From contig JAJVHX010000001.1 of assembly GCA_022072405.1 (NCBI GenBank), forward strand, positions 371,915 through 435,914: a stretch of DNA of 64,000 nucleotides, in the 5' to 3' direction. Numbering within the stretch: the stretch's first letter is position 1; the number at the start of each line of letters is the position of its first letter. The translations under genes and the position numbers were made by a program. The notes under the pieces were generated by a model. The model ran no database searches. It was not told the DNA's origin and worked only from the letters and a program-made list of their open reading frames with translations. Shown piece after piece: positions 19,450 through 33,751 of the stretch. The DNA is from Phycisphaerae bacterium (GTDB taxonomy: Bacteria > Planctomycetota > Phycisphaerae > UBA1845 > CAIVHJ01).

Positions 19450-20880
19450 CTAACCCAGCAGTGACAGAATTTGTCCCGCCTGCTGATTGGCCAATCCTAA
19501 CAGTGAGATACCGGATTGCAGTAACACCGTCTGCTTGTTCAATTCAGCCGTCGCCACCGCGTAATCGGTATCACCGATGACACTGGCTGCTGCACTCAAC
19601 CCGACCTTGGTCGACTGCAGGCTGCGAACGGATGGCTGCACCTGGAACTTCTGGAAACCGCCGATGCGCCCCTGGGCCACAGCTACCTGATTGATTGCTT
19701 CACGTACAATGGCCAGTGCTGTAGCACGACTATCCGCATCGCTCAAATCGGCACTGCCGCCACTGGAAATCTCGCTCAGGTAACCACCACTGTCGCCACC
19801 TCCCAGCTTATGAGCAAAGAGTGCGTCGATACCCAGGGTTACTTGAGTATTGGCTTCGCTTCCCAATTGGAAGTTAAAGCCGCCGGTGGTCTGAACTGTA
19901 AATGTTTCCGTAGTCGCATCGGTGTCAAGTGATAAGCTGCCACTGACGCCGCCGACATTAAAAGTAACTTTCTCACCATCTGCGGTGAAGGTCTGGCCGT
20001 TGATATTGCCTACTGCATCGGTACCGATGGTTTTGGAGACATCGGCAAAAGAGTCCGGTGCTCCACCAATCGCACCGCCGCTGAGTACATCAACCATCAG
20101 GAAATTTTCGCTGCCGGTTTGCGTTGAGCCGTAGACCAGATAGTTGCCCGAAGCAACGGCGGATACACCCGTGGAATCTTTGGCCGCGTTAATGGTGGTG
20201 ACCGCGTTCGCCAAGTTGGTACTACTGGCAATGGTGATGGTGGCCGTTCCCAACGATCCTGTAACGGCCAGTTCCACCGCGCCGTTCGTGGTTGAACCGT
20301 TGAAATTGACGCTGGCCGCCGTATCACCTGACGTGGTCGCTTCCGCAGCAGCCGTGGATACCGTTACGGTGAGAGTTAAATCACTTTCGAGATTGCTGCG
20401 GCTATAGATGTTCAGATCCAGGATATCGCCGCCGGTATTGATCGTATCAATACTGCCTGAGCCGTCCAGCAGTCGTTTGCCGTTGAATTCCGTGGTCCGC
20501 ACGATGCGGTTGATACTGGAAATGGCATCATCAATCTGCGATTGGTTGGCGGCCAGTTCGGACGACGACAGATTGGCTTCGCTGGAGGATGCGACGATCA
20601 GGCTTTCCACTTCATTCAGCAATCCGTGAATCTCGCTGATGGCGTTGTCCGCCACGCCCAGCACGGCGTCAGTGCGCTGATTGTTGGCAATGGCCTGATC
20701 CACTGCGGTAATTTCGGCACTGAGGTTGCGCAAAGCGATAATGCCGGCCGGATCATCAGCCCCACGGTTGATCCGCAACCCGGTTGATAACTGGGTCAGC
20801 ACATCGCTCTGTTGCTTCCCTGTGTTGCTCACAATGCTCAACAGGGAAAGTGTGTTTGTGTTCGTAATCGTTAAACCCAT
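19450..20880 (-). CDS. Flagellin (copy 2)
   Basis: 476 residues, the same length as copy 1, with the same D0/D1 ends (GLTITNTNTLSLLSIVSNTG at the start, REAINQVAVAQGRIGGFQKF near the end). The start is the ATG at 20880 with AAGGGGG upstream; the open frame beyond it is unsupported. The central region is nearly identical to the other copies (for example NINGQTFTADGEKVTFNVGG), pointing to recent duplication or gene conversion. It has its own upstream element and terminator, so each copy can be expressed separately. Copies may be used in different parts of the filament, as in other bacteria with several flagellins. Confidence 0.95.
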   Translation of the reverse strand: MGLTITNTNTLSLLSIVSNTGKQQSDVLTQLSTGLRINRGADDPAGIIALRNLSAEITAVDQAIANNQRTDAVLGVADNAISEIHGLLNEVESLIVASSSEANLSSSELAANQSQIDDAISSINRIVRTTEFNGKRLLDGSGSIDTINTGGDILDLNIYSRSNLESDLTLTVTVSTAAAEATTSGDTAASVNFNGSTTNGAVELAVTGSLGTATITIASSTNLANAVTTINAAKDSTGVSAVASGNYLVYGSTQTGSENFLMVDVLSGGAIGGAPDSFADVSKTIGTDAVGNINGQTFTADGEKVTFNVGGVSGSLSLDTDATTETFTVQTTGGFNFQLGSEANTQVTLGIDALFAHKLGGGDSGGYLSEISSGGSADLSDADSRATALAIVREAINQVAVAQGRIGGFQKFQVQPSVRSLQSTKVGLSAAASVIGDTDYAVATAELNKQTVLLQSGISLLGLANQQAGQILSLLG

Positions 20881-20937
20881 GATAAACCCCCTTCTTCTCA
20901 AAATGTTCTGGCGGGAAACGATGCAACAGAGGAAAAG

Positions 20938-20964
20938 TAAGATATAAAAACCGTTTGGGCAAAA
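20938..20964 (-). promoter_or_regulatory. Conserved promoter-like element before flagellin 2
   Basis: Minus strand TTTTGCC-N10-TTATATCTTA, 57 bases before the ATG. All 17 defined bases and the 10-base spacing recur before copy 3 (22746-22772), although the surrounding DNA is unrelated. It does not match the FliA consensus (TAAA...GCCGATAA). Confidence 0.55.
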
Positions 20965-21188
20965 TAGGTGAGATGAATTATCTGGGATGACCATGTCGAA
21001 TAACCGGTGATCATCTGAAAAGTCGCCAGTATGGATAAAAAAGGGTTGATTATGGACTACTCAATTTGCAGGGACACGAGCGATAACCGGCCATTTGCCC
21101 GCTACGACACGGTCTGACTGACGTTTAAAAGGTGTGCGGCGTAACCTCCAGAAATAATTTCCCGTCTGCATGTAGGCGTAAGAACAAT
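20965..21188. other. Gap between flagellins 2 and 3
   Basis: Together with the promoter element and the copy-3 terminator on either side, this makes a 370-base gap. I see no gene. It holds a short string, CCGGTGATCATCTGAA (near 21004), resembling part of the copy-1 3' hairpin, and GTAGTCCAT on the minus strand (21060-21052), which also occurs upstream of copy 3 (22801-22793). Confidence 0.4.
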
Positions 21189-21222
21189 AAAAAAAAGCCC
21201 GAAGTGATGAACCACTTCGGGC
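21189..21222 (-). terminator. Rho-independent terminator after flagellin 3
   Basis: GCCCGAAGTG (21197-21206) pairs with CACTTCGGGC (21213-21222) and is followed on the minus strand by eight bases that are almost all T. It lies 28 bases after the stop and shares the GCCCGAAG core with the terminator of copy 2. Confidence 0.9.
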
Positions 21223-21250
21223 GTTGACTGATGGAAATCAGCGCTGCGTA

Positions 21251-22684
21251 TTATCCACCGATCAGACTGAGAATCTGCGCGGCCTGCTGATTGGCCAACC
21301 CTAATAGGGAGATGCCGGATTGCAGCAGTACGGTCTGCTTATTTAATTCCGCCGTCGCTACGGCGTAATCCGTGTCACCGATGACACTCGCTGCGGCACT
21401 GAGTCCGACCTTGCTGGATTGCAGGCTGCGGATCGACGGCTGCACCTGGAACTTCTGGAAGCCTCCGATACGCCCTTGAGCAACTGCAACCTGGTTTATG
21501 GCTTCACGTACCACGGCCAGTGCCGTTGAACGGGAATCCGCATCACTCAGATCGGCGGTACCGCCGCTGGCGACCTGGCTGAGATAACCACCACTATCAC
21601 CACCACCCAGCTTGTGAGCGAACAGGGCATCAATACCCAGCGTTACCTGGGTTGAGCCGTCGCTACCCAACTGGAATGTGAAACCGCCGGTGGTTTGAAC
21701 CGTGAATGCTTCCGTCGTCGCATCGGTGTCCAGCGAAAAGCTGCCGCTGACGCCACCGACGTTGAAGCTGACTTTTTCACCATCAGCGGTAAAAGTCTGG
21801 CCGTTAATATTACCGACTGCATCAGTACCAGTGATCTTGGTAACATCCGCAAAAGTATCCGGTGCTCCGCCAATGGCGCCACCGCTCAGAACATCCACCA
21901 TCAGAAAGTTATCACTGCCGGTTTGCGTAGAGCTGTAGACCAGATAGTTACCTGAAGCCACAGCCGAAACACCCGTCGAATCCTTGGCGGCATTGATGGT
22001 GGTGACCGCCGTCGCCAGACTAGAACTGCTGGCGACCGTTATAGTGGCCGTTCCGAGTGAACCAGTTATGGCTAACTCGACCGCGCCATTCGTCGTCGAT
22101 CCGTTGAAATTAACGCTGTCAGCGGTATCACCGGAAGAAGTTGCTTCCGCAGCCGCAGTCGTTACGGTGACGGTCAGAGTCAGGTCGCTTTCAAGGTTCG
22201 ACCGGCTGTAAATATTCAGATCCAGAATATCACCACCGGTATTGATGGTATCAATCGCACCGGATCCGTCGATTAAGCGTTTGCCATTGAAGGCCGTCGT
22301 ACGCACGATCCGATTAATGCTGGAGATTGCATCATCAATCTGGGCCTGGTTGGCGGAAAGCTCGGAAGCGGAGAGATTCGCTTCACTGGAAGAGGCGATG
22401 ATCAGACTTTCAATTTCATTCAACAAGCCATGAATTTCCCCCAAGGCGGTATCCGCGACACCCAAAACTGCATCTGTTCGCTGGTCATTGGCAATGGCTT
22501 GATCGACGGCAGTAAGTTCGGCTTGAAGATTCTTGAGAGCGATGAGTCCGGCTGGATCGTCTGCACCCCGATTGATCCGCAGACCTGTGGAGAGCTGTGT
22601 CAAGACGTTGGTCTGTGACCGCTCTGTGTTGGACAAAATGCCCAACAGATTCAGTGTGTTTGTGTTTGTGACCGTGAGACCCAT
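21251..22684 (-). CDS. Flagellin (copy 3)
   Basis: 477 residues, one more than the other copies because of a final glycine (SLIGG). Flagellin N- and C-terminal D0/D1 regions are intact. It is the most upstream copy in the transcription direction, with AAGGAACC before the ATG. Differences from copies 1 and 2 are scattered substitutions (for example DTFADVTKITGTDAVG where the others have DSFADVSKT), which suggests sequence drift with partial homogenisation. Own promoter-like element (22746-22772) and terminator (21189-21222). Confidence 0.95.
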   Translation of the reverse strand: MGLTVTNTNTLNLLGILSNTERSQTNVLTQLSTGLRINRGADDPAGLIALKNLQAELTAVDQAIANDQRTDAVLGVADTALGEIHGLLNEIESLIIASSSEANLSASELSANQAQIDDAISSINRIVRTTAFNGKRLIDGSGAIDTINTGGDILDLNIYSRSNLESDLTLTVTVTTAAAEATSSGDTADSVNFNGSTTNGAVELAITGSLGTATITVASSSSLATAVTTINAAKDSTGVSAVASGNYLVYSSTQTGSDNFLMVDVLSGGAIGGAPDTFADVTKITGTDAVGNINGQTFTADGEKVSFNVGGVSGSFSLDTDATTEAFTVQTTGGFTFQLGSDGSTQVTLGIDALFAHKLGGGDSGGYLSQVASGGTADLSDADSRSTALAVVREAINQVAVAQGRIGGFQKFQVQPSIRSLQSSKVGLSAAASVIGDTDYAVATAELNKQTVLLQSGISLLGLANQQAAQILSLIGG

Positions 22685-23584: not shown

Positions 23585-25378
23585 TCAATGCGGCGGTGTC
23601 GGGGATAGTGACTGACTGGTGGGGATCAGACAGAAATCCTGTATCGTACGACCATGCCAATGTTGTGCGGTTAAACGATAGGGTGGAGACTGGGGTTGCA
23701 CGGTCGGCCAGTAAAAGATTTGATCACGTTGCGCATTCATGGCCAGCACAACCAGTTCAGAGGCGGCGAAGCGGCGTAGTGGTTCACCAGGACCGATGTA
23801 CTGGCAATTAAATACATCGCCGAGAATCAGACCATGGACCGCAGTTGAGTAATCGCAATACAGCAGGCCGCGGATTTGCGGATGGGGCAACAGGTATATG
23901 CTCTCGATGGGATTGGACTGGCTACGGAGCAACAGGCGCGGTACAGCAGAATCCGCCAGGGTCCACATCCAGATGGTTCCCTCGCTGGTTCCCGCGAAAA
24001 TGATATCCTGATGTACGAGTAATGCCGTGATCGAGCCGGATGATTCCACGACCCAGGAGCGCACGGATTGAATCTCTCGCATCGTGATCTCCCGCCAGGG
24101 AAAATTTACAACACGATTATCTATGCTGAGCCATACTTGCTCTCCAACGACCTGAACATGGCGAATCGTTTTTGCCTTCCGGGTCAGCTCCGACAATAGG
24201 TCAATATTAGTCTCAGGTTGATCGATCGGCCAGGCTCTCAAGCCTAACTCAGAATGACTTCCAAACAGATAATTATCCGCACGCGCTAGGGCATTAAAAC
24301 CCCCTTGTGGAGCAGTTCCAGGGCAGGTTCTATAATACGCTTTGACCGTTCCGGTCGATATATCAATTAACTGAATTCCGGTCGCTGTACCGATCATCAA
24401 TTCTGAAACTCGATTCGACCAACTGATCGAGCGGGCTGGTCCGGCACTCATATCGAGGGGGATTACGCGCCGGGGCTGGTCTGGTTGCTGCAAATCCCAG
24501 ATATACAAATGCGTCGCCGTGATAATGGCTGCAGCACCCGCAGCAATGTCGTGATGCTCGTGTGTCCATAGTGCTTCATAGTAGGCGCCTCGTTGTGTCA
24601 GTGGTATTTGTGCGGCAGCAAAAGCCAGGGGGTATTGATCAGCGGTCGTCGCCGCAGCACAGTTCTGCTGCCACCAGCCCTGGGCTCGTTGCAGCCGTTC
24701 CTGGCGTTCATGCTCTAATTTTTTTTGCCAGTGTTGATCTTCATGCTGTTGAGTCGTGCGTAAATGGTGCCATTGTTGAACAGCAGTATGTTCCTGTCCC
24801 GCAGCACTGCTGAAATGGCAATGTGCTACTCTTTGCCACATCAACCCCAATACGAATAGTGTTGTTTCGCATCCTGATGCGAGTATCTGATCCAGAGTCG
24901 GTGAGTGGGGCGTTTGTAATAATTGAGCGTAACTCTGCGTTTGCAGCCACTGCTGCAGGCCGGGGAAAAACCCGGAGATGAGTACTTCAGCTAACCGTGA
25001 TCGCGTTAGTCCATCTTCTAGCGTTTCACAATAATTAAGCCAGGTCGTACAGTCCGAGGGGTCGTTACCGGGCAGCACATCCAATCGGATTGTTGCCTGA
25101 CACATGAATCCTTCTGCAGTATAAAGACCCATTAATACACAATCCACTGACCATATTCCGGCCCGCATCAGTAATAAGCGTTCATAATTGGCTGTTGGTA
25201 TCTCTGAACCGGGCGGATATTTATCAATCGTAGCAGCACCTACCGCGACGGCCATCCAATCATTTGGTAATTGCACGCTGCGAGTGAACAGGGTTGAGAA
25301 ATTTGTGGTGGGGATGACCAGTGCAAGCAGATCGTTGGATTGTGACAGTCGATTCCACATCCCGCCAAAGTTGGCCAT
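23585..25378 (-). CDS. Beta-propeller protein of the ESCRT-like cluster
   Basis: 597 residues from the ATG at 25378 (GAGGT upstream), last gene of the seven-gene cluster and 10 bases after the Vps4-like ATPase. The N-terminal 190 residues form an unrecognised domain (FGGMWNRLSQSNDLLALVIP onward). A charged, Trp/Gln-rich helical stretch (about 200-250) leads into a C-terminal region of repeated WD40-like blades: YIWDLQQPDQPRRV, IGTATGIQLIDISTGTVKA, FAGTSEGTIWMWTLADS. Propellers of this sort usually bind proteins or lipids, so it may be an adaptor or coat-like component for the ESCRT-III-like proteins. No signal peptide, so cytoplasmic. Confidence 0.65.
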   Translation of the reverse strand: MANFGGMWNRLSQSNDLLALVIPTTNFSTLFTRSVQLPNDWMAVAVGAATIDKYPPGSEIPTANYERLLLMRAGIWSVDCVLMGLYTAEGFMCQATIRLDVLPGNDPSDCTTWLNYCETLEDGLTRSRLAEVLISGFFPGLQQWLQTQSYAQLLQTPHSPTLDQILASGCETTLFVLGLMWQRVAHCHFSSAAGQEHTAVQQWHHLRTTQQHEDQHWQKKLEHERQERLQRAQGWWQQNCAAATTADQYPLAFAAAQIPLTQRGAYYEALWTHEHHDIAAGAAAIITATHLYIWDLQQPDQPRRVIPLDMSAGPARSISWSNRVSELMIGTATGIQLIDISTGTVKAYYRTCPGTAPQGGFNALARADNYLFGSHSELGLRAWPIDQPETNIDLLSELTRKAKTIRHVQVVGEQVWLSIDNRVVNFPWREITMREIQSVRSWVVESSGSITALLVHQDIIFAGTSEGTIWMWTLADSAVPRLLLRSQSNPIESIYLLPHPQIRGLLYCDYSTAVHGLILGDVFNCQYIGPGEPLRRFAASELVVLAMNAQRDQIFYWPTVQPQSPPYRLTAQHWHGRTIQDFCLIPTSQSLSPTPPH

Positions 25379-25388
25379 TGGCGTTACC

Positions 25389-26504
25389 TCATTGTCCGCT
25401 GTTCTGGAAGCGTACAAAACGCTCCAGATCGCCGGCTTTCACGGACGGCGGGGTGGCTTGAATCACGTTAATGATATCCTGTTGTATGATGGTCCGGGCC
25501 TGTTGTCCGGCGATGGATTCCAAAAAGGCCTGACGAGCAGCTACTTCGGCGATATGGGTGATATCGGCTCCACTATAACCATCCAGCATATCACACAACG
25601 GGCCGAAATTGACATCTTCTGCCAACGGCTTATCAGCCAGGTTGATTTCCAGTAGCTTGAAACGTGCGGGGGCATCAGGCAGTGGTACATAAATCATCGT
25701 ATCGAATCGGCCTGGCCGGCGCATCGCTTCATCCAGCAGCCAGGGTTTGTTGGTTGCTCCGAGGAACAATAAGGGTTGCCCCTTCTGTTCACCGAAGCCC
25801 TCCAACTCCTGCAGAATCTGCGGGACCACCCGCTGCATGACACTCGAGCCATGTCCTTCACGACGGGGAGTCAACGCTTCAATTTCATCCATGAATATAA
25901 TGGCTTGTGGTTCGGCGCGGGCCGCTTCGAATAACTTTTTCAGGTTCTGCTCCGCTTCACCCACCCATTTGCTCAGAATATCCGCCGGGCTGACCAGAAA
26001 GAATGTCGCTTGCAGCTCGAAGGCGATGGCTTTGGCCATCATGGTTTTTCCCGTACCGGGCGGTCCATACAATAACACTCCGCCACCCGGATTGATGCCA
26101 TATTTCGCCGCCAGCTCCCGGTGCTGCAGCGGATAAATCATTTTTAACCGGATTTCATTTTTGACGTTTTCCAGGCCGGCGATGTCGTCGAAGCCGATAT
26201 TCGGCTTTTCCCGTACGATCCATTCCGAGGCAGACTGGTCTTCATCTTCATTTTCACCGGCACGCTGCCGGGCGGGCGAACCGGACTTTTTATTCTGCTC
26301 ACATTTTTTCGCCAGTTCGATGAGTTCTGCGGCATACGTTTCCTGCTGCTGGCGAAGTTGGGGGGTCTTCGCCTGTTCAGCCAGCTCGATCATGCACTCG
26401 GCCGCTTCAATCAGGTAGGAACGCGCCGCAGCGTATTCGCCCTGGCGATAGGCTTTCACGCCTTTCTCTTTCAGTCGTTCAAAAGTCGAAAATACGGTAC
26501 TCAT
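25389..26504 (-). CDS. Vps4/CdvC-like AAA ATPase with N-terminal MIT domain
   Basis: 371 residues. Residues 4-70 read as a three-helix MIT domain (AYRQGEYAAARSYLIEAAEC, then LRQQQETYAAELIELAKKC), the module Vps4 uses to bind ESCRT-III tails. After a charged linker comes one AAA cassette: GPPGTGKT (147-154), pore loop LSKWVGEAEQNLKKLFEAAR like Vps4 SKWLGESE, Walker B IIFMDE, sensor GATNKPWLLDEAMRRPGRFD and GYSGADI (309-315). The C terminus TPPSVKAGDLERFVRFQ (351-367) matches the Vps4 C-terminal helix pattern; FtsH, p97 and katanin-like relatives need excluding, but MIT plus this tail point to the Vps4 group. The Vps4 beta domain is missing, as in some archaeal CdvC. It lies 14 bases after the ESCRT-III-like gene. 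Confidence 0.85.
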   Translation of the reverse strand: MSTVFSTFERLKEKGVKAYRQGEYAAARSYLIEAAECMIELAEQAKTPQLRQQQETYAAELIELAKKCEQNKKSGSPARQRAGENEDEDQSASEWIVREKPNIGFDDIAGLENVKNEIRLKMIYPLQHRELAAKYGINPGGGVLLYGPPGTGKTMMAKAIAFELQATFFLVSPADILSKWVGEAEQNLKKLFEAARAEPQAIIFMDEIEALTPRREGHGSSVMQRVVPQILQELEGFGEQKGQPLLFLGATNKPWLLDEAMRRPGRFDTMIYVPLPDAPARFKLLEINLADKPLAEDVNFGPLCDMLDGYSGADITHIAEVAARQAFLESIAGQQARTIIQQDIINVIQATPPSVKAGDLERFVRFQNSGQ

Positions 26505-26518
26505 TTCAGCGGCTATCT

Positions 26519-27133
26519 CTATTTCTGTTTTTCATTGACTTGCTGTCGTTTCAGAGCGTCCAGTTCCGCACGCAGACCGACCAGCTGGTCCATCTCTTTT
26601 TCATGTTCAGCCTGCGCTTCTACGTCGATTAACCGGTCGATTTCCTCGTCGCTGACGGTCAGATCACCGCTGCTCAGGCTGGAATCCTGAGCAGCCACAT
26701 CCTCGATCGAATCGAGAAACATGTTCATGCGTTCTTCCATGCTTTGCGACTGGACCATGGCCTTCTCCCAGTCCAGCTGAGTTTTTACCAGATCGGTCTG
26801 GCCGAATAGCCGACTGATTTCATTGGCCATCATGCTCATCGATTTGGCAAAATCGGCACTGGTTTCGGCTTGGCGCTTGATCAGCAGTGCGTTCTTGATG
26901 GAGAGTAATTGACGTTCCAGCAACCGTTGGATCGTCGCGGTTTTCTTGAGCGAATTGCGAATAAAAATATATTGTTTGTTGTCGCCGATTTGTTTAGCCC
27001 GTTGGGCATTACGGATGAATTCGTCCTGAAACTGTTTTTGTTCTCGAATGGCCTTTTCAACTCGGCGGATACCCTGGCGGACCTTCATATCCCGCTCCAC
27101 CCGCCGTTCTTCTTCTGATTTGAACAAACCCAT
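26519..27133 (-). CDS. ESCRT-III-like protein (CHMP2/Vps24 type)
   Basis: 204 residues, almost all helical. It begins MGLF, like many CHMP proteins, then a basic helical hairpin (about 8-92) and a short-helix region ADFAKSMSMMANEISRLFGQ. Next comes EKAMVQSQSMEERMNMFLDS (123-142), which has the spacing of the CHMP3/CHMP2 helix 4. An acidic stretch (143-180) follows, then a terminal helix LVGLRAELDALKR (184-196). That helix fits the MIM1 pattern at four of six positions (L187, L191, L194, K195). Basic-then-acidic polarity with a MIT-binding tail is the ESCRT-III hallmark, and the MIT-bearing ATPase is the next gene. PspA/Vipp1 are known bacterial ESCRT-III relatives but lack this tail. Similarity is by eye. 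Confidence 0.75.
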   Translation of the reverse strand: MGLFKSEEERRVERDMKVRQGIRRVEKAIREQKQFQDEFIRNAQRAKQIGDNKQYIFIRNSLKKTATIQRLLERQLLSIKNALLIKRQAETSADFAKSMSMMANEISRLFGQTDLVKTQLDWEKAMVQSQSMEERMNMFLDSIEDVAAQDSSLSSGDLTVSDEEIDRLIDVEAQAEHEKEMDQLVGLRAELDALKRQQVNEKQK

Positions 27134-27183
27134 ATCTCAATTCCTTTTAACCGCATAGTGCGCTGAGGACGCTGTGATTGATT

Positions 27184-27795
27184 CTATGCCTCTTCCGGGG
27201 TCTTATGTTTTTCGCGGACGCGACGATCGGCTTCATCAAACGCTTCATGGGCATCGGTGAGCACGCCGTTATCCATCTTGTCCCAGATGTTCAACACTTC
27301 CTGGCCGGCTTTGGAAATGCCTGCCGCACCTTCATCCACTTCACGGCCAAGGGACATCAACTGGTCCAGCCGTTCCTGGTATAACTCGGCACTGATGGCA
27401 TCGTTTTCTATCAGCTTGCTGATGGTCAGCATGTCTTTTTCGCTGATCAATCCCAGATGGCTGCCGGCATTTCTGGCCCGTTCCTGGTTTTCCCGCAGCA
27501 TCCGCAACCTCGACACGGTGATCATTTCTTTGGTGCGGATATTCAATTGACGGGCGAGCATTAGTTGTTCAGTGGTTTTCAGTTCAAATTCCTGAGCCAA
27601 AGCGCGGCGGATTTCGGGCGTTTTCTCGCCGGCGCCTTTCTGAAAAAGTACCTGCTTATCACCCGCCAGTTTCTGTACCTTCTTCAGCATCTGGTTGCGG
27701 TCTTTTTCAAGAAGAAGTTCCTGACGACGCAACTCGGCGCGATCCATGCTGGAAAGAGCTTTATGACCTTTGAGCAGCCATTCAATAAACGACAT
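27184..27795 (-). CDS. Helical protein, probable second ESCRT-III-like subunit
   Basis: 203 residues from the ATG at 27795, chosen for GAGGT 6 bases upstream; a TTG that overlaps the previous stop would add ten residues. The start MSFIEWLLKGHKAL is an amphipathic helix suited to membrane contact. A long basic helical hairpin follows (about 17-105, with LARQLNIRTKEMITVSRLRM), and an acidic C-terminal half with helices at 118-150 and 160-195. Length, helix layout and charge polarity match ESCRT-III subunits and resemble the next gene's product, but I see no MIM-like tail, so the assignment is weaker. It lies in the middle of the cluster, 50 bases before the CHMP-like gene. Confidence 0.6.
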   Translation of the reverse strand: MSFIEWLLKGHKALSSMDRAELRRQELLLEKDRNQMLKKVQKLAGDKQVLFQKGAGEKTPEIRRALAQEFELKTTEQLMLARQLNIRTKEMITVSRLRMLRENQERARNAGSHLGLISEKDMLTISKLIENDAISAELYQERLDQLMSLGREVDEGAAGISKAGQEVLNIWDKMDNGVLTDAHEAFDEADRRVREKHKTPEEA

Positions 27796-27821
27796 GAGTA
27801 ACCTCGGGAGCCGGGGCTGAT

Positions 27822-29255
27822 TCAATTGGCTTCCGGCTGGCGACTGGGTGGTACCTGATCCTTACCTGTTGCCGGCGAAACGGCTGATTCGCGTACCCCG
27901 GCGGCTTTTAACTTATCAGCATTGGAAAGCGATGGCGCTTCAAATTCCTGCATGATCGCCATCTCATCAGCGGAGACCAATGATTCATTGATACCGGTGG
28001 AGAGCGAACCCACCAGATCGGCATCGGCGTTGAGCGATTCCAGCATTTCCTCCGCCGCCACGGCCGTTTCCGTGAGTTCCTCCGTCGTGGGTAATTTGGC
28101 CTTCTGGCCCTGTTGAATCAGCGCTAAATTATGAATGTTGGTGCTGAGAATATTGATTTGCTTGTTCAAAACCGCCGCCGCCGCATTCTGACGGGCGATG
28201 TCCTGGCGCAGCTGCGAAACCTGGGCGGCAATTCGACGGCGAACCACCTGAGACTGATTTTCGCGCCCCTGAGTCATCAGGTCCGCCTCGCGTTTTTCGA
28301 GCTGGGCGATTTCGTCATAAAGACGATCCCGCCGTTGGCTGAGGGCCGCCCGCCGTTCAGCCAGCTCGTTGATCTTCCTGGTTTCGTCACCTTCCCGGCT
28401 GAATAATTGCCGAATACGATCAATCATCGACATGCCCGCACGCTCCTGTCCCTCATCGGCGATACCGCGATACAGAAAAAGTTCACCCGCTTCCTGGCCC
28501 AGCTGGTATTCGGGCTCGCGGGTGGTCAATCGTCGCAATCCTTGTTCAACTACCTTGGGTTCCAGTTGCAACCGTTCGACCAGTTGCGAAACGGTCAGCC
28601 CACCGGTCACCAGCTCGGATCGATGTTCAGCCACATAATTCGCTACCCGTTCAATTTTATCATCATTATCCTCAGGATCGAATAATTCTCTTAAACGAGG
28701 ATCTTCCTGCCCCGGACGGCGGATCACCTGCCAGCCGCCATGGGAGCCGGGTTCAATCAGCACCAACGTTATATCACGCATCTCCGGCAGCCATTCACGG
28801 GCTTCAGCCGTAAAGCCGCTGGGACTTAACACCCCGATAATATGGGGGATGTGCGGGGTGATGTTCAACGTCCGCAGGTGTTCCTGCAAGGTCAGGCGGT
28901 CGATCGGTGGAGCCGGCGCTGCGAGTGAGGCTTGCTGCACCTGCCATTCCAGCGGAGTCAGCACACTCGCGATCGCCACTCCGGTACGTTGTTGTCCGAA
29001 AAACCACCAGGGTCGCTGAAATCCCTGCAAGATCAGCCGGCGATTGCGCGATAAACTGGTCAGTAATTGCCGATCAAATTTCTGATGACGGGCCATCAGG
29101 GCGCGCAGGCGATCGGCCTCATCTGTTTCGGTCAGCGTCCAGCTTCGCCCACGCAACAATCGGCCCTTGGCCTGTTCAAAATTACGAATCATGCCCGCCA
29201 GGTAGCGTGATTCCAGTTCCATGGGCTGGTGAGTATTATTGGCCACAGTCCTCAA
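27822..29255 (-). CDS. Winged-helix plus Snf7-like fusion (CHMP7-like layout)
   Basis: 477 residues. Residues 1-195 form an unrecognised N-terminal domain (IIGVLSPSGFTAEAREWLP, DITLVLIEP). Residues 197-265 read as a winged helix (ERVANYVAEHRSELVTGGLT, VSQLVERLQLEPKVVEQGLR, then a strand pair). Residues 275-438 look like a Snf7/CHMP4 core: an amphipathic start SMIDRIRQLFSR, a hairpin from 291 to 370 including INELAERRAALSQRRDRLYD, then LPTTEELTETAVAAEEMLES and an acidic tail. Human CHMP7 has the same order (winged helices, then ESCRT-III core) at similar length. The TTG start overlaps the kinase stop by 4 bases; GTG at 29246 or ATG at 29222 are alternatives. A coiled-coil protein unrelated to ESCRT-III remains possible. 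Confidence 0.65.
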   Translation of the reverse strand: MRTVANNTHQPMELESRYLAGMIRNFEQAKGRLLRGRSWTLTETDEADRLRALMARHQKFDRQLLTSLSRNRRLILQGFQRPWWFFGQQRTGVAIASVLTPLEWQVQQASLAAPAPPIDRLTLQEHLRTLNITPHIPHIIGVLSPSGFTAEAREWLPEMRDITLVLIEPGSHGGWQVIRRPGQEDPRLRELFDPEDNDDKIERVANYVAEHRSELVTGGLTVSQLVERLQLEPKVVEQGLRRLTTREPEYQLGQEAGELFLYRGIADEGQERAGMSMIDRIRQLFSREGDETRKINELAERRAALSQRRDRLYDEIAQLEKREADLMTQGRENQSQVVRRRIAAQVSQLRQDIARQNAAAAVLNKQINILSTNIHNLALIQQGQKAKLPTTEELTETAVAAEEMLESLNADADLVGSLSTGINESLVSADEMAIMQEFEAPSLSNADKLKAAGVRESAVSPATGKDQVPPSRQPEAN

Positions 29256-30346
29256 GCTTTCTCGGCCTTAATCAATTGTTGGCCGCAATAAATGCAGTAT
29301 GGATCGTTGCCCAAAGCCCACCGACCGCATACCTCACACCGCTGGGTATGTTCATTCACATTCAATCCGCACTGTACGCAATAAAGATCGCCGACCCGAA
29401 TGGCTTGCGTGCAGCGCGGGCAGCTGCCGATCAGTGGTGGCAGTTCAGTATCGACCAGATCTAGTTCCGTCTGACTGTCGGTTGCTTCGCCACGTGCCGA
29501 TATCCATTCATGAATTAAATTCAATATTTCGCTGCTGTCGGTGAATCGAGTTTCTCGACGTGTGTAACTGCGTTCGAATAACTTGTCGGCCAGCGGTGGC
29601 AGATTTTTTACCAGATCTGATGGCCAATCGTGACCCTGGGGACGAATACCAGTCAACATCTCAAACCAGATAATTCCTACGGAAAATAGATCGCTGCGGC
29701 TATCAACGGTCAGTCCGTCGCGCTGTTCAGGTGACAGATAGGCTATGGTTCCGGATAACGATTGATCGCCATCGGTCCGTAAACTGCCCGATTGCAACAG
29801 CGTCTGAGTCGTCAACCCGCTGATCACTCCCAGCCCGAAATCACTGATCCGTATATCTTTGGCCCGCAAGGTAGCCAGGCTGGCGGAACCGATGTTGAGC
29901 AGAATATTTTCCGGTTTCAGGTCTCGATGAACGATTTTGTTCTGATGGGCAGCATGCAGCGCGCGCAACAGCCCATCCAGTATGGTCAGCGCGATCGGCA
30001 GCGGTAACCCCTGTCGATGCTGCTGAAGCAAGGTTCGCAGGTTTGGCCCGTCGATATACTCCATGATCAGGTAGGGGGGATCGGCAAAGGGATCAAAATC
30101 ATAAAGAGCGACGATATTGGGATGCTGCAACCCATACAGCAAAACACCTTCGTGGCGGAGTTGGCGGACATATTCAGCATCGGTGGGAATTTTAATGGCT
30201 GCCGGGCGATTCAGGTATAAATGTCTAGCCCGCCAGACCTGACCATAGCTGCCCGAACCAATCAGCTCTTCCAGCTGGTAGTTGCCGAGTCGTTGTTCAG
30301 GGGTACCTGGCACCATTGTATGTCGCTCTGTATTCATACCGATCAT
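29252..30346 (-). CDS. Ser/Thr protein kinase with two C-terminal zinc ribbons
   Basis: 364 residues. A complete Hanks-type kinase domain covers about 23-285: ELIGSGSYGQVWRA, lysine K52 in AAIKIP, catalytic HRDLKPENIL (D142), DFG at 169-171 and GTIAYLSPEQR. Two zinc ribbons follow: C309/C312 with C323/C326 and C337/C340 with C351/C354. There is no transmembrane segment, unlike the kinase at 57059. Its ATG overlaps the stop of the membrane-protein gene by 4 bases, and its own stop overlaps the next start, so synthesis is coupled to the cluster. It probably phosphorylates one or more of the ESCRT-like proteins; that is inference from position only. Confidence 0.85.
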   Translation of the reverse strand: MIGMNTERHTMVPGTPEQRLGNYQLEELIGSGSYGQVWRARHLYLNRPAAIKIPTDAEYVRQLRHEGVLLYGLQHPNIVALYDFDPFADPPYLIMEYIDGPNLRTLLQQHRQGLPLPIALTILDGLLRALHAAHQNKIVHRDLKPENILLNIGSASLATLRAKDIRISDFGLGVISGLTTQTLLQSGSLRTDGDQSLSGTIAYLSPEQRDGLTVDSRSDLFSVGIIWFEMLTGIRPQGHDWPSDLVKNLPPLADKLFERSYTRRETRFTDSSEILNLIHEWISARGEATDSQTELDLVDTELPPLIGSCPRCTQAIRVGDLYCVQCGLNVNEHTQRCEVCGRWALGNDPYCIYCGQQLIKAEKA

Positions 30347-30774
30347 GGCCCGGCGTCAGCGCGACTGGCCAGATAATCGGCCACCAGAAAATTATAGAGA
30401 CTCGCCACCAGGAAGCCAATCATCCGCACGCTCCAGGTCAGCGCGCCGCCTTCAAAATCCCAATCCGCCAACCACCAGGCCATCAGTACATCCAGTATCG
30501 CATAGCAGATCAGCAAGCCGACACCCGCCAGATTATTTTCAAATCGCAGGATCATTTGCGGCAGGAAAAATAAAGCCCAGGGCAGTACCGCAACAAAACC
30601 AATCCAGATCAGAGTATACTTGACGACCTGCCAGATAGACTGGAGTTGTTCGGGGTTCTGATAAAACCAATAACCCGTCAGGCATACCGCCAGTAGCAGC
30701 AGGGCCGTCAGTACCTTCCCGCCGATATGGCGCCCGAGACTCACCCAGATCGATTGATTTACCGGTTCGTTCAT
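30343..30774 (-). CDS. Four-helix membrane protein, first gene of the ESCRT-like cluster
   Basis: 143 residues from the ATG at 30774, with four transmembrane helices: LTALLLLAVCLTGYWFY, TLIWIGFVAVLPWALFFLPQ, AGVGLLICYAILDVLMAWWL and MIGFLVASLYNFLVADYL. Start choice is uncertain: no clear Shine-Dalgarno is seen, and an ATG at 30813 would add 13 residues. It could serve as a membrane anchor or target for the soluble cluster proteins. Family not recognised. Confidence 0.6.
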   Translation of the reverse strand: MNEPVNQSIWVSLGRHIGGKVLTALLLLAVCLTGYWFYQNPEQLQSIWQVVKYTLIWIGFVAVLPWALFFLPQMILRFENNLAGVGLLICYAILDVLMAWWLADWDFEGGALTWSVRMIGFLVASLYNFLVADYLASRADAGP

Positions 30775-31375: not shown

Positions 31376-33751
31376 TCAACTGTTTTCAGTTATCGGGATC
31401 ACCGGCTTTACGGTGGGGGTGATCCGGGATTTTCGCATGGTTTCCGCCAGCGACTCAATTTTCTGGGTCAGGCTGCTTTGTCGTTCGGTCAATGCTGCTT
31501 CGGCCAGTTCCTGATTGACCCGGCTGCTGGAAATCATTTCAGCCTCCGCGGGTGCTACCGGCCGACGTTTTTCTGCCACCAGGCGTGTGGCATGGATCAG
31601 GGCTTCAATGGATTTGCGGGCCCGATCAGCCTTCTCGATCATGTTCTGTAGTTCGTTCAAGCGCAGCTGACCGTCATGCAGGTTGCGCTCGGTCGCCGAT
31701 CCCATGGTCCGCAGTTCGCGCATCAGCTGGGTGGGTTTTTCCACCGTATCCCGCAACTCGGCAATTTTCTTGGTCATGCGACCCACCACTTGATCGGCAT
31801 CACGTACCTGTTCCGAGAGTCGATGAACCTGCTCCTCGGAATGTTTATAAATCTGGCCGAGTACCTCGCGTAATTTCTGGGTACGCGAGACCTGCTGATT
31901 CAAATCAACAATGGACTCCTGAGCATTTTCATCCAGTTCGGTCAATCGCTGACAGGTAGTCTCGCCCTGCACCGTGGCTTTCTTGCTGGTCTCAACAGAG
32001 CGTTCCACCGATTTCTGCAGGGCTTCACTGGCCTGTTGCACAATCGTGCTCATTCGTTCGACCTGTTCCACCTGGCGGGCCGTCTTGACCAGTATCTCTT
32101 GCGGTTGATTCAGCAGGGTGGTCGCCACATTTAAGAGATGATCAAGTTGTGTGACCAGTTGCTGGGCGTCGGTCTGACGAGCGGAGAAACTGGCTTCGAA
32201 TTCCTGGCGGATGCTCTGTGATTCGCTGATCACTCCCTGTATTTGCATTTTAGATGCATGTAATTGCTGTTCCTGGCTGTTCAACTGCTGCAGCAGGTTA
32301 TCATATCGACCCAGACGTTGATCGAGCAGTTCGATTCGTTTCTGGCGATCCTGTTCCTGATCCTGAGCGATGGTGACCAGATCCTTGATTTCCGTCCATT
32401 TGCGATTGATCAGCCGCTTGCACTCATTCAGTTCCTGATCAAAGGCCACCTGACGGTTGGCCAGTTTTTTATCGATAAAAGTAGCCCGCTCAGTCAGTTT
32501 CTGATCCTGATCAACCAGTAGCTGTGTGGCCCGGTTCATCTCCTGGACTTGCTGGCCCATGCGTGCCTCACGCTCCGCCAGGGCTTTTTCCTGCGTATCC
32601 AGCTTATCCGACAGAATGCGTAATTCCTCCAGCCGGGTGGTCAGGCTTTTTTCCCGATTGCTCAGGGTATGCTCCTGTTCCTGCAGAACCACGGTCAGGC
32701 GGTGCAGGTCGCGCAATTTGGAGTCAATCAGTCCCTGATGTTCGTTGAATTTCAGTTCCTGGCTGCGCAGCTTGGCACTAAGCCGATGCAATTCCTGAAT
32801 CCGTCGATCGGTATCGACGGCGGCGGTTTCCAGTTCATTGATCTGGTTTTCCAGTGACTGCACATACTGTTCTGTCATCTGGGAAATGGCCTGATCGACT
32901 TCATCCGGCTGCTGATTGAAAGCCGCAGCATTTTCTTCCGAACCGGTAACAATCTCATCGATAACCAGTTGCACCTGCGGTGCGTCGATGATGGACTGGC
33001 CGCTGGAAAAGGCACTGATCAGCAGATTATCGCACAGGTTATTGATCAGGCGGGGCGTCCCATCCGCGTATTGGTGAATGATATCCAGTGCTTCGGGGGT
33101 AAAGAGTGCTTCCGTGCGGGAAAAGCCCGCCACCCGCAAACGATGTTGAATATAACTTTCGGTCTGTTCCTGCTTGAAGCGTGTTAGATGGAATGATCGG
33201 AAAATACGCTGCGAGAGTTGTTTCATGCTGCTGCGTTTCAGCAGGTTCTGCAGATGAAACTGTCCCAGTAGAACGATCTGCACGAGCTTGCCGCCCGCCA
33301 CTTCCAGATTGCTCACCAGGCGCAACTGTTCAAAATGAACTTCCTGCAGGGTGTGTGCATCATCGATTACGATCAGGGAATTGCGATCCTTGGACTGCTG
33401 GGTAAGTAAGTAATCTTCCAGTGTCGCCAGCAACTCCATGGTGGTGCCGGTCGGCTCGAAGGGTATCTGAAACTCCCGGCAGATCGCCGGCAATATATCC
33501 GTTCCCGGCAGTTGCGAGTTGTTGATGACGGCGGTGCTCACCTGGCTGCCCAGGTGGGTTAACATCAGCCGGCTGAGCATGGTTTTGCCCATACCCACTT
33601 CACCGGTCACCACTACCAGGCCTTTTTTCTCTTTGGCCGCGTAGATCAATGATGCCAACGCCTCTTCATGTTGCGGGCTGGCAAAAAAGAACTTGGGATC
33701 CAAGGTGCCGTTGAACGGGGCCTCACGTAACCCGAAAAATTCCGTATACAT
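31376..33751 (-). CDS. ExeA-like AAA ATPase with very long coiled coil
   Basis: 791 residues. The first 270 match the ExeA/GspA-type AAA proteins: EFFGLREAPFNGTLDPKFFF at the start, Walker A TGEVGMGKTMLSRL, Walker B SLIVIDDAHTLQ and the C-terminal LINNLCDNLLI. These ATPases drive assembly of the secretin in type II secretion or act with polysaccharide export. Residues 290-770 are an almost continuous coiled coil rich in Glu, Gln, Leu and Arg (for example AEREARMGQQVQEMNRATQL). There is no peptidoglycan-binding domain or transmembrane helix. The family is thus a cytoplasmic ATPase with a long rod, which could organise a structure near the membrane. Shine-Dalgarno GGAG is 11 bases from the ATG. 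Confidence 0.75.
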   Translation of the reverse strand: MYTEFFGLREAPFNGTLDPKFFFASPQHEEALASLIYAAKEKKGLVVVTGEVGMGKTMLSRLMLTHLGSQVSTAVINNSQLPGTDILPAICREFQIPFEPTGTTMELLATLEDYLLTQQSKDRNSLIVIDDAHTLQEVHFEQLRLVSNLEVAGGKLVQIVLLGQFHLQNLLKRSSMKQLSQRIFRSFHLTRFKQEQTESYIQHRLRVAGFSRTEALFTPEALDIIHQYADGTPRLINNLCDNLLISAFSSGQSIIDAPQVQLVIDEIVTGSEENAAAFNQQPDEVDQAISQMTEQYVQSLENQINELETAAVDTDRRIQELHRLSAKLRSQELKFNEHQGLIDSKLRDLHRLTVVLQEQEHTLSNREKSLTTRLEELRILSDKLDTQEKALAEREARMGQQVQEMNRATQLLVDQDQKLTERATFIDKKLANRQVAFDQELNECKRLINRKWTEIKDLVTIAQDQEQDRQKRIELLDQRLGRYDNLLQQLNSQEQQLHASKMQIQGVISESQSIRQEFEASFSARQTDAQQLVTQLDHLLNVATTLLNQPQEILVKTARQVEQVERMSTIVQQASEALQKSVERSVETSKKATVQGETTCQRLTELDENAQESIVDLNQQVSRTQKLREVLGQIYKHSEEQVHRLSEQVRDADQVVGRMTKKIAELRDTVEKPTQLMRELRTMGSATERNLHDGQLRLNELQNMIEKADRARKSIEALIHATRLVAEKRRPVAPAEAEMISSSRVNQELAEAALTERQSSLTQKIESLAETMRKSRITPTVKPVIPITENS

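Follow-up and report, generated by a model that had tools for sequence, protein, structure and literature searches.

Does a bacterium encode an ESCRT-III filament protein and a Vps4-type ATPase side by side? Remodelling machines of the ESCRT-III/Vps4 type (ESCRT, endosomal sorting complex required for transport) have been described as limited to archaea and eukaryotes. The question is raised by seven genes at positions 23585–30774, minus strand, of a 64,000-nt window, the whole stretch of DNA analysed here, from contig JAJVHX010000001.1 of a Phycisphaerae bacterium (assembly GCA_022072405.1; genome size, 3.57 Mb; completeness, 94%). A first-pass annotation made from the letters alone had proposed an ESCRT-III/Vps4-like cluster in a bacterium. 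Our analysis supports that proposal: the seven genes probably encode a bacterial ESCRT-III/Vps4 machine for ATP-driven membrane remodelling, because relatives of ESCRT-III filament proteins are encoded beside a Vps4-like ATPase. The basis for this interpretation is the homology of the P3 family, the AAA motifs of P2 and its place in the best tree, the gene order, and a motif in the P3 tail. The annotation had also named two outcomes that would speak against it, a P3 model resembling unrelated coiled coils and an ATPase grouping with FtsH, p97 or other non-Vps4 groups, and neither comparison went against it.

Seven open reading frames (ORFs) fill the span, in the 5′ to 3′ order P7, P6, P5, P4, P3, P2, P1. 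All are confirmed as the tightly packed, same-strand genes of the annotation, including two 4-nt overlaps, at P7/P6 and P6/P5; the remaining gaps are 26 nt (P5/P4), 50 nt (P4/P3), 14 nt (P3/P2) and 10 nt (P2/P1). All coordinates given below for P1–P7 and their parts refer to the minus strand.

P3 (26519–27133) is an ESCRT-III-like protein with a predicted four-helix layout, and is nearest to CHMP3 and CHMP2A. CHMP2A and CHMP3 are filament partners and are acted on by VPS4. A 28-member profile comprising near and distant P3 proteins, compared with all PDB sequences, returns four CHMP3 entries and one CHMP2A entry as its top five matches (E 6.7e-5 to 0.0053), and the sixth match, at E 0.29, is noise. 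When 66 family members are searched singly against Pfam, Snf7 is the commonest match (17 of 66, counting E up to 1; best E 2.8e-8), and it exceeds the Pfam cut-off of 27.3 in 2 of 20 members examined singly, at locus L162 (34.0) and locus L152 (27.8). Judged by these sequence comparisons, the P3 family is homologous to Snf7/CHMP3. The window copy is more diverged: Pfam does not match it to Snf7 (best unrelated sub-cut-off match, 0.078), the Snf7 model finds zero matches in the window's own genome, and the order-level P3 profile, A1, finds no ESCRT matches in the PDB. The AlphaFold2 (AF2) model of P3 (predicted local distance difference test score (pLDDT), 75) comprises helices 7–49, 52–109, 116–149 and 162–203, arranged as an alpha1–alpha2 hairpin plus further helices. 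With this model as query, Foldseek ranks 1–16 all belong to the ESCRT-III superfamily, with weak E-values and with Vipp1 structures among the matches.

The C-terminal segment LRAELDALK (residues 187–195; 26549–26575) resembles an MIT-interacting motif 1 (MIM1) and is a candidate MIT ligand. In the order-level alignment, a variable linker leads into a terminal LRAE[LI]xx[LV]K in 31 of 33 P3 proteins, and those of L032 and L041 are off by one residue. The relaxed MIM1-like pattern [LIVM]xxx[LIVM]xx[LIVM]x?[KR] occurs in 116 of 142 P3 tails, compared with a mean of 10.3 and a maximum of 18 in shuffled tails; the 142 rows overlap, with genomes repeated across locus sets, and are not independent. 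The strict MIM1 consensus occurs in three of the 142 (L153, L064 and L081), and the highest count among shuffled tails is the same. The natural reading is that this tail would serve as the ligand of an MIT domain.

P2 (25389–26504) has an MIT-type N-terminus and a single AAA domain (Pfam AAA, 2.4e-39) and was called a MIT-domain Vps4-like ATPase at first pass. Its Walker A motif GPPGTGKT (residues 147–154; 26043–26066) is invariant or nearly so in 24 order-level rows. Invariant in the same rows are KWV (179–181; 25962–25970), whose role as pore loop 1 we take from Vps4, the Walker B pair D206-E207 (25884–25889), and RPGR (263–266; 25707–25718), presumably the arginine-finger region. An MIT-like domain is predicted at about residues 1–75 (26280–26504). 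Specifically, the CdvC model aligns to residues 14–362, covering the MIT region, Pfam MIT is matched in 5 of 19 P2 relatives, and the family MIT profile matches the MIT domain of SKD1/Vps4B (1wr0, E 8.3e-4) and 2w2u (E 0.0097), which we take to be a Sulfolobus MIT domain. Designed TPR repeats head the PDB list for this profile, so the MIT assignment rests on lower-ranked MIT rows, and the window P2 searched alone has no Pfam MIT match. The Vps4_C model scores 18.7 on the window P2 (E 0.0017; cut-off, 21.3); it passes the cut-off in three of four Clostridia checked (L158, L161 and L163) and stays below it in L162 and in the Planctomycetota locus L147.

In an AAA tree of chosen representatives, with Asgard, thaumarchaeal, katanin and fidgetin rows left out, one side (99/93) unites P2 and its relatives (type A) with a second AAA type found near P3 (type B) and with CdvC, Vps4 and spastin, whereas FtsH and Cdc48 lie apart from it. 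Type A forms its own clade (99/94), which unites Planctomycetota and Clostridia and stands beside CdvC/Vps4/spastin; a grouping of type A with CdvC is not rejected by the approximately unbiased (AU) test (p 0.161). Profile sets A7, A8, A9 and A11 were likewise drawn from chosen representatives. The MIT profile, the CdvC alignment and the best tree speak for the Vps4-like assignment. P2 adjoins the ESCRT-III-like gene in the window and in relatives, an arrangement corresponding to criterion ii in the available part of PMC10936438. Type-B AAA genes lie upstream of P3 in L147, L150, L152, L153, L154 and L156 and form a separate clade near Vps4/spastin; by eye, those of L147, L153 and L156 have an MIT-like N-terminus and no RPGR motif. 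The clostridial P2 homologues of L158, L162 and L163 carry a C-terminal extension of about 110–130 residues with an acidic end, which L161 and the Planctomycetota rows examined lack.

Two further products may contribute ESCRT-III-like subunits. P5 (27822–29255; TTG start; AF2 pLDDT, 83.5) is predicted to comprise an N-terminal alpha/beta domain, a winged helix (residues 197–263; 28467–28667) and an ESCRT-III-like helical domain (residues 277–439; 27939–28427) that begins with a short helix (277–286). Foldseek matches of the winged helix are mostly regulators and also include the ESCRT-II entries 2zme, 1u5t and 3cuq; in structural comparison, the first hairpin of the tail matches CHMP3, Snf7, CHMP1B, Vipp1 and CdvB2. 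The predicted layout is CHMP7-like. In CHMP7, a winged helix is likewise followed by ESCRT-III helices. P4 (27184–27795; ATG start; 203 aa) is related to the P5 helical domain (hhalign probability 95, E 3.9e-8), and through this link it may be an ESCRT-III subunit as well; hhalign finds nothing between P3 and P4 or between P3 and the P5 helical domain. In Pfam searches, Snf7 is matched in 4 of 49 P5-family members (best E 0.077) and is absent from the P4 family among 25 of 32 families listed, and the window copies alone give only unrelated sub-cut-off matches (best, 7.3e-4 for P5 and 2.1e-4 for P4). The order-level profiles A2 (P4) and A3 (P5) find no ESCRT matches in the PDB, and the top matches of A3 are designed coiled coils. 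Of the one to three ESCRT-III-like proteins counted at first pass, P3 stands by family homology, P5 is a candidate by predicted fold, and P4 is a candidate through P5; of the winged-helix/Snf7 fusion, the winged helix and the hairpin appear in the P5 model, and a Snf7 sequence match is missing from the window copy. At L157 (7313–9990), P5 is split into two adjacent genes, one for the winged-helix portion and, between it and P4, a small one for the ESCRT-III-like tail.

Within Planctomycetota, the cluster is conserved across a single order and has relatives in further groups; Clostridia carry a shorter version. P3 is present in 33 of 41 order-level genomes, counting the window's own, with 58–81% identity outside it, and is missing from eight, some of them incomplete assemblies. 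P4 is present in 34 of the 41, and the two genes agree in presence or absence in 40 of 41, the exception, G007, having P4 only. Complete ORFs were found in 32 order-level loci (L022–L053) for P3 in 32, P4 in 30, P5 in 28, P2 in 25 and P1 in 24, counts lowered by several loci that end at contig edges. Wherever at least two genes were found, the order P7-P6-P5-P4-P3-P2-P1 is kept, and this identity of gene order across the order-level loci indicates that the cluster is not a chance assembly. In L041, P3 is solitary, with P4 at another place on its contig.

Beyond the order, P3 is found in 40 of 150 class genomes and in 54 of 294 phylum genomes, and 22 of 29 short phylum-search loci (2–3.6 kb each) include an AAA gene matched by the P2 profile. 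A scan of named genomes confirmed 85 P3 loci, mostly titled Phycisphaerae, Phycisphaerales or Planctomycetota; the titles Kuenenia (L153) and Alphaproteobacteria (L113) are possibly wrong bin names. Eighty of the 85 form the set L084–L163, which shares genomes with L022–L053 (for example, L022 and L084) and on which all Clostridia counts rest; six of the 80 are titled Clostridia or Clostridiales. In the distant Planctomycetota L147, L153 and L156, P3 is flanked by two MIT-type AAA genes, type B upstream and the P2-like type A downstream, and P1-, P5- and P6-like genes lie near P3 in such genomes. In Clostridia, a P2-like gene follows P3 in five of six loci, with a gap of at most 20 nt in four (L159 is cut by a contig end) and of 1.5 kb in L161. 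In the clostridial locus L160 (8689–12175), two AAA genes flank the ESCRT-III-like gene: a RuvB-type one with a winged helix downstream and one that is CbxX-like by eye upstream; both neighbours have MIT-like N-termini by eye.

Forty-six loci have P3 and P2 in this order, counted after L092 (weak, other strand) and L160 (RuvB-type) were dropped from 48 loci with an AAA gene after P3, and in 16 of the 46 the gap between the two is below 60 nt. In relatives, the ORFs that separate P3 from P2 belong to several small groups, each limited to 10 loci or fewer, and so look like insertions. Small nucleotidyltransferase-like and HEPN-like ORFs, named by eye, recur between the two genes in L088, L092, L094, L105 and others.

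The remaining members of the cluster are a membrane protein, a kinase and a large soluble protein. P7 (30343–30774; ATG start) is a small protein with three transmembrane-like stretches by hydropathy, in agreement with its first-pass description, and holds a conserved position in order-level relatives; it is likely the membrane anchor of the system. P6 (29252–30346), whose position is likewise conserved, is a Ser/Thr kinase (Pfam Pkinase, 9.9e-37); the C-terminal double zinc ribbon (DZR) ascribed to it falls below the cut-off (1.8e-5). P1 (23585–25378; ATG start) is a large soluble protein with a possible C-terminal beta-propeller, for which the WDR36/PorZ matches are weak (best, 0.013), so that the propeller of the first-pass annotation is unproven.

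We propose that P3 would polymerise with P4 and P5, both predicted to be ESCRT-III-like, into filaments lining the inner side of a membrane, probably the cytoplasmic or an internal membrane, and that P2 would use its predicted MIT domain to grip the tail of P3 and extract subunits, whereupon the membrane is predicted to bend, be cut or seal. The P5 winged helix may recruit or nucleate the filament in the manner of CHMP7 or ESCRT-II, P7 would anchor the system, and P6 and P1 could regulate or scaffold it. In Planctomycetota the machine most likely serves to vesiculate, remodel or repair inner or internal membranes; it may also contribute to FtsZ-less division, though this is less probable. A general membrane job is preferred because it fits the distribution of P3 and FtsZ better.

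Some results weigh against an ESCRT-III/Vps4 machine or its extension to division. The AU test allows type A to group with Cdc48 D2 (p-AU 0.243). The structure scores of P3 are weak, with unrelated helical chains nearly equal in a second structural comparison. For the P5 hairpin, the coiled coils of HP0958 and Rad50 outscore the ESCRT-III matches, so the fold match alone is not specific. Furthermore, the P3–P2 pair co-occurs with FtsZ in Clostridia, and P3 is missing from 240 of 294 phylum genomes, which weakens the link to FtsZ-less division.

Cytokinesis is the alternative that survives best, though it is unlikely: P3/P4/P5 filaments would constrict the division site of FtsZ-less bacteria, driven by P2, as Cdv does in Sulfolobales. 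FtsZ scores above the model cut-off in none of 41 order-level and none of 294 phylum genomes, in line with the first-pass remark that most planctomycetes are thought to lack it, while 13 of 14 control genomes are positive. The sole control miss is Sulfolobus acidocaldarius, of an order that divides by ESCRT according to the available part of PMC11796394. The available sections of PMC6952346 describe division akin to binary fission without FtsZ in Phycisphaerae and Brocadiales and seek the driving protein, and FtsZ-less division in such bacteria is posed as an open question there and in the accessible part of PMC5147048; with no FtsZ above the cut-off in order or phylum, the cluster is a candidate answer. 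Against this, P3 occurs in so few phylum and class genomes and is missing from eight order-level genomes, some incomplete. Moreover, FtsZ accompanies P3 in all six Clostridia genomes, above the cut-off in five and as two partial pieces in the remaining one, and the L152 genome also has FtsZ. Sub-cut-off FtsZ matches in 1 of 41 order-level and 10 of 294 phylum genomes (best E 3.2e-47) suggest that FtsZ loss may not be total. A universal FtsZ replacement is ruled out by the distribution.

A PspA/Vipp1-type membrane-stress and repair complex that gained control by an ATPase and a kinase is distinctly improbable. PspA and Vipp1 belong to the same superfamily, as stated in the available text of PMC8281802, Vipp1 structures are among the structural matches of P3 and P5, PspA/Snf7 relatives lie beside bacterial AAA ATPases in the accessible part of Ravi et al. 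(PMC11237479), and membrane repair is still a plausible job for the machine. However, the PspA_IM30 model misses P3, P4 and P5 at E 1e-3, with its sole own-genome match on contig 13, and the best profile matches of P3 are CHMP3 and CHMP2A, not Vipp1 or PspA. That contig 13 gene (G000:C13:77658–80032), on a contig other than the cluster's, adjoins a gene with an AAA-type match, and the two may be one of the PspA/two-AAA pairs of Ravi et al.

It is less probable still that P3–P5 are generic coiled coils served by a kinase-controlled Cdc48-like unfoldase, for example for the quality control of proteins, for signalling or for gene regulation through the winged helix. Such a reading would suit the missing Snf7 match of the window P3, the proneness of helical bundles to chance structural matches, and the model scores of P2, slightly higher with CDC48 (236.5) and PAN (228) than with CdvC (219.6); it is opposed by the Snf7 and CHMP3 sequence matches across the P3 family and by the MIT profile matches of the P2 family. 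An anti-phage defence system built from the kinase and the AAA ATPase is scarcely credible, for although PADLOC gave domain-level matches of P2 to IetA and P6 to kinase families, these were its only kind and no complete known system emerged, P1, P3, P4 and P7 were unmatched at E 0.01 and P5 weakly matched, and the gene order is conserved in many relatives.

Returning to the probable ESCRT-III/Vps4 machine, it shares features with each of the closest known systems. Winged-helix parts are common in archaeal Cdv/ESCRT systems (CdvB and CdvC of Sulfolobales and others) as described in the consulted portion of PMC10936438. In contrast to those systems, the present cluster is bacterial, its AAA clade is separate and beside CdvC/Vps4/spastin, it is linked to a kinase, a transmembrane protein and a possible propeller, and its window ESCRT-III parts are too diverged for the Snf7 model. 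The likeness to eukaryotic ESCRT-III/VPS4 lies in the CHMP3/CHMP2A profile matches and the MIM1-like tail of P3, together with the CHMP7-like order of P5 domains; unlike VPS4B, P2 has a lid without the long insert (alignment by eye), and unlike eukaryotic ESCRT, the seven genes include no ubiquitin-sorting gene. PspA/Vipp1 is likewise bacterial and of the same superfamily, with the hairpin fold, but the PspA model misses P3–P5.

Whether an ATPase serves Vipp1 as Vps4 serves ESCRT-III is left open in the available text of PMC8281802. In the open-access PMC literature, excluding preprints and subscription papers, we found no report of a bacterial MIT-Vps4 beside ESCRT-III. The nearest is Ravi et al. 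2024 (PMC11237479), whose available sections describe bacterial Snf7 relatives, some near AAA ATPases, and Vps4-like AAA proteins of certain bacteria whose loci have a TPR-6TM protein in place of snf7; in the present cluster, by contrast with those Vps4-like loci, the ESCRT-III-like gene adjoins the Vps4-like AAA gene. Both ESCRT-III and Vps4 in one conserved cluster of two bacterial phyla would redraw the map of ESCRT origins and would supply bacteria for studying ATP-driven ESCRT-III remodelling. They would also offer a testable candidate for the force generator of FtsZ-less Phycisphaerae sought in the available part of PMC6952346, though the distribution makes that role less likely. A bolder version, which we regard as doubtful, holds that true ESCRT machines exist in bacteria, with an A-type (P3) and a second-type (P4/P5) ESCRT-III, a winged-helix nucleator and a kinase-controlled MIT-Vps4, cutting membranes in Planctomycetota and Clostridia and performing cytokinesis in FtsZ-less Phycisphaerae. 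If it were true, the position of the AAA clade next to archaeal CdvC rather than within it would mean that the ESCRT-III/Vps4 pair predates the archaea–bacteria split or was transferred very early.

A search for inverted repeats in the cluster region gave nothing telling. Just upstream of the cluster, on the same strand, lies a gene for a 791-aa protein (31376–33751) that carries an AAA_22 domain at its N-terminus and, by eye, a long coiled coil. Downstream, elongation factor P is encoded with strand unchanged, and positions 19450–22684 hold two neighbouring, similar ORFs that look flagellin-like by eye.

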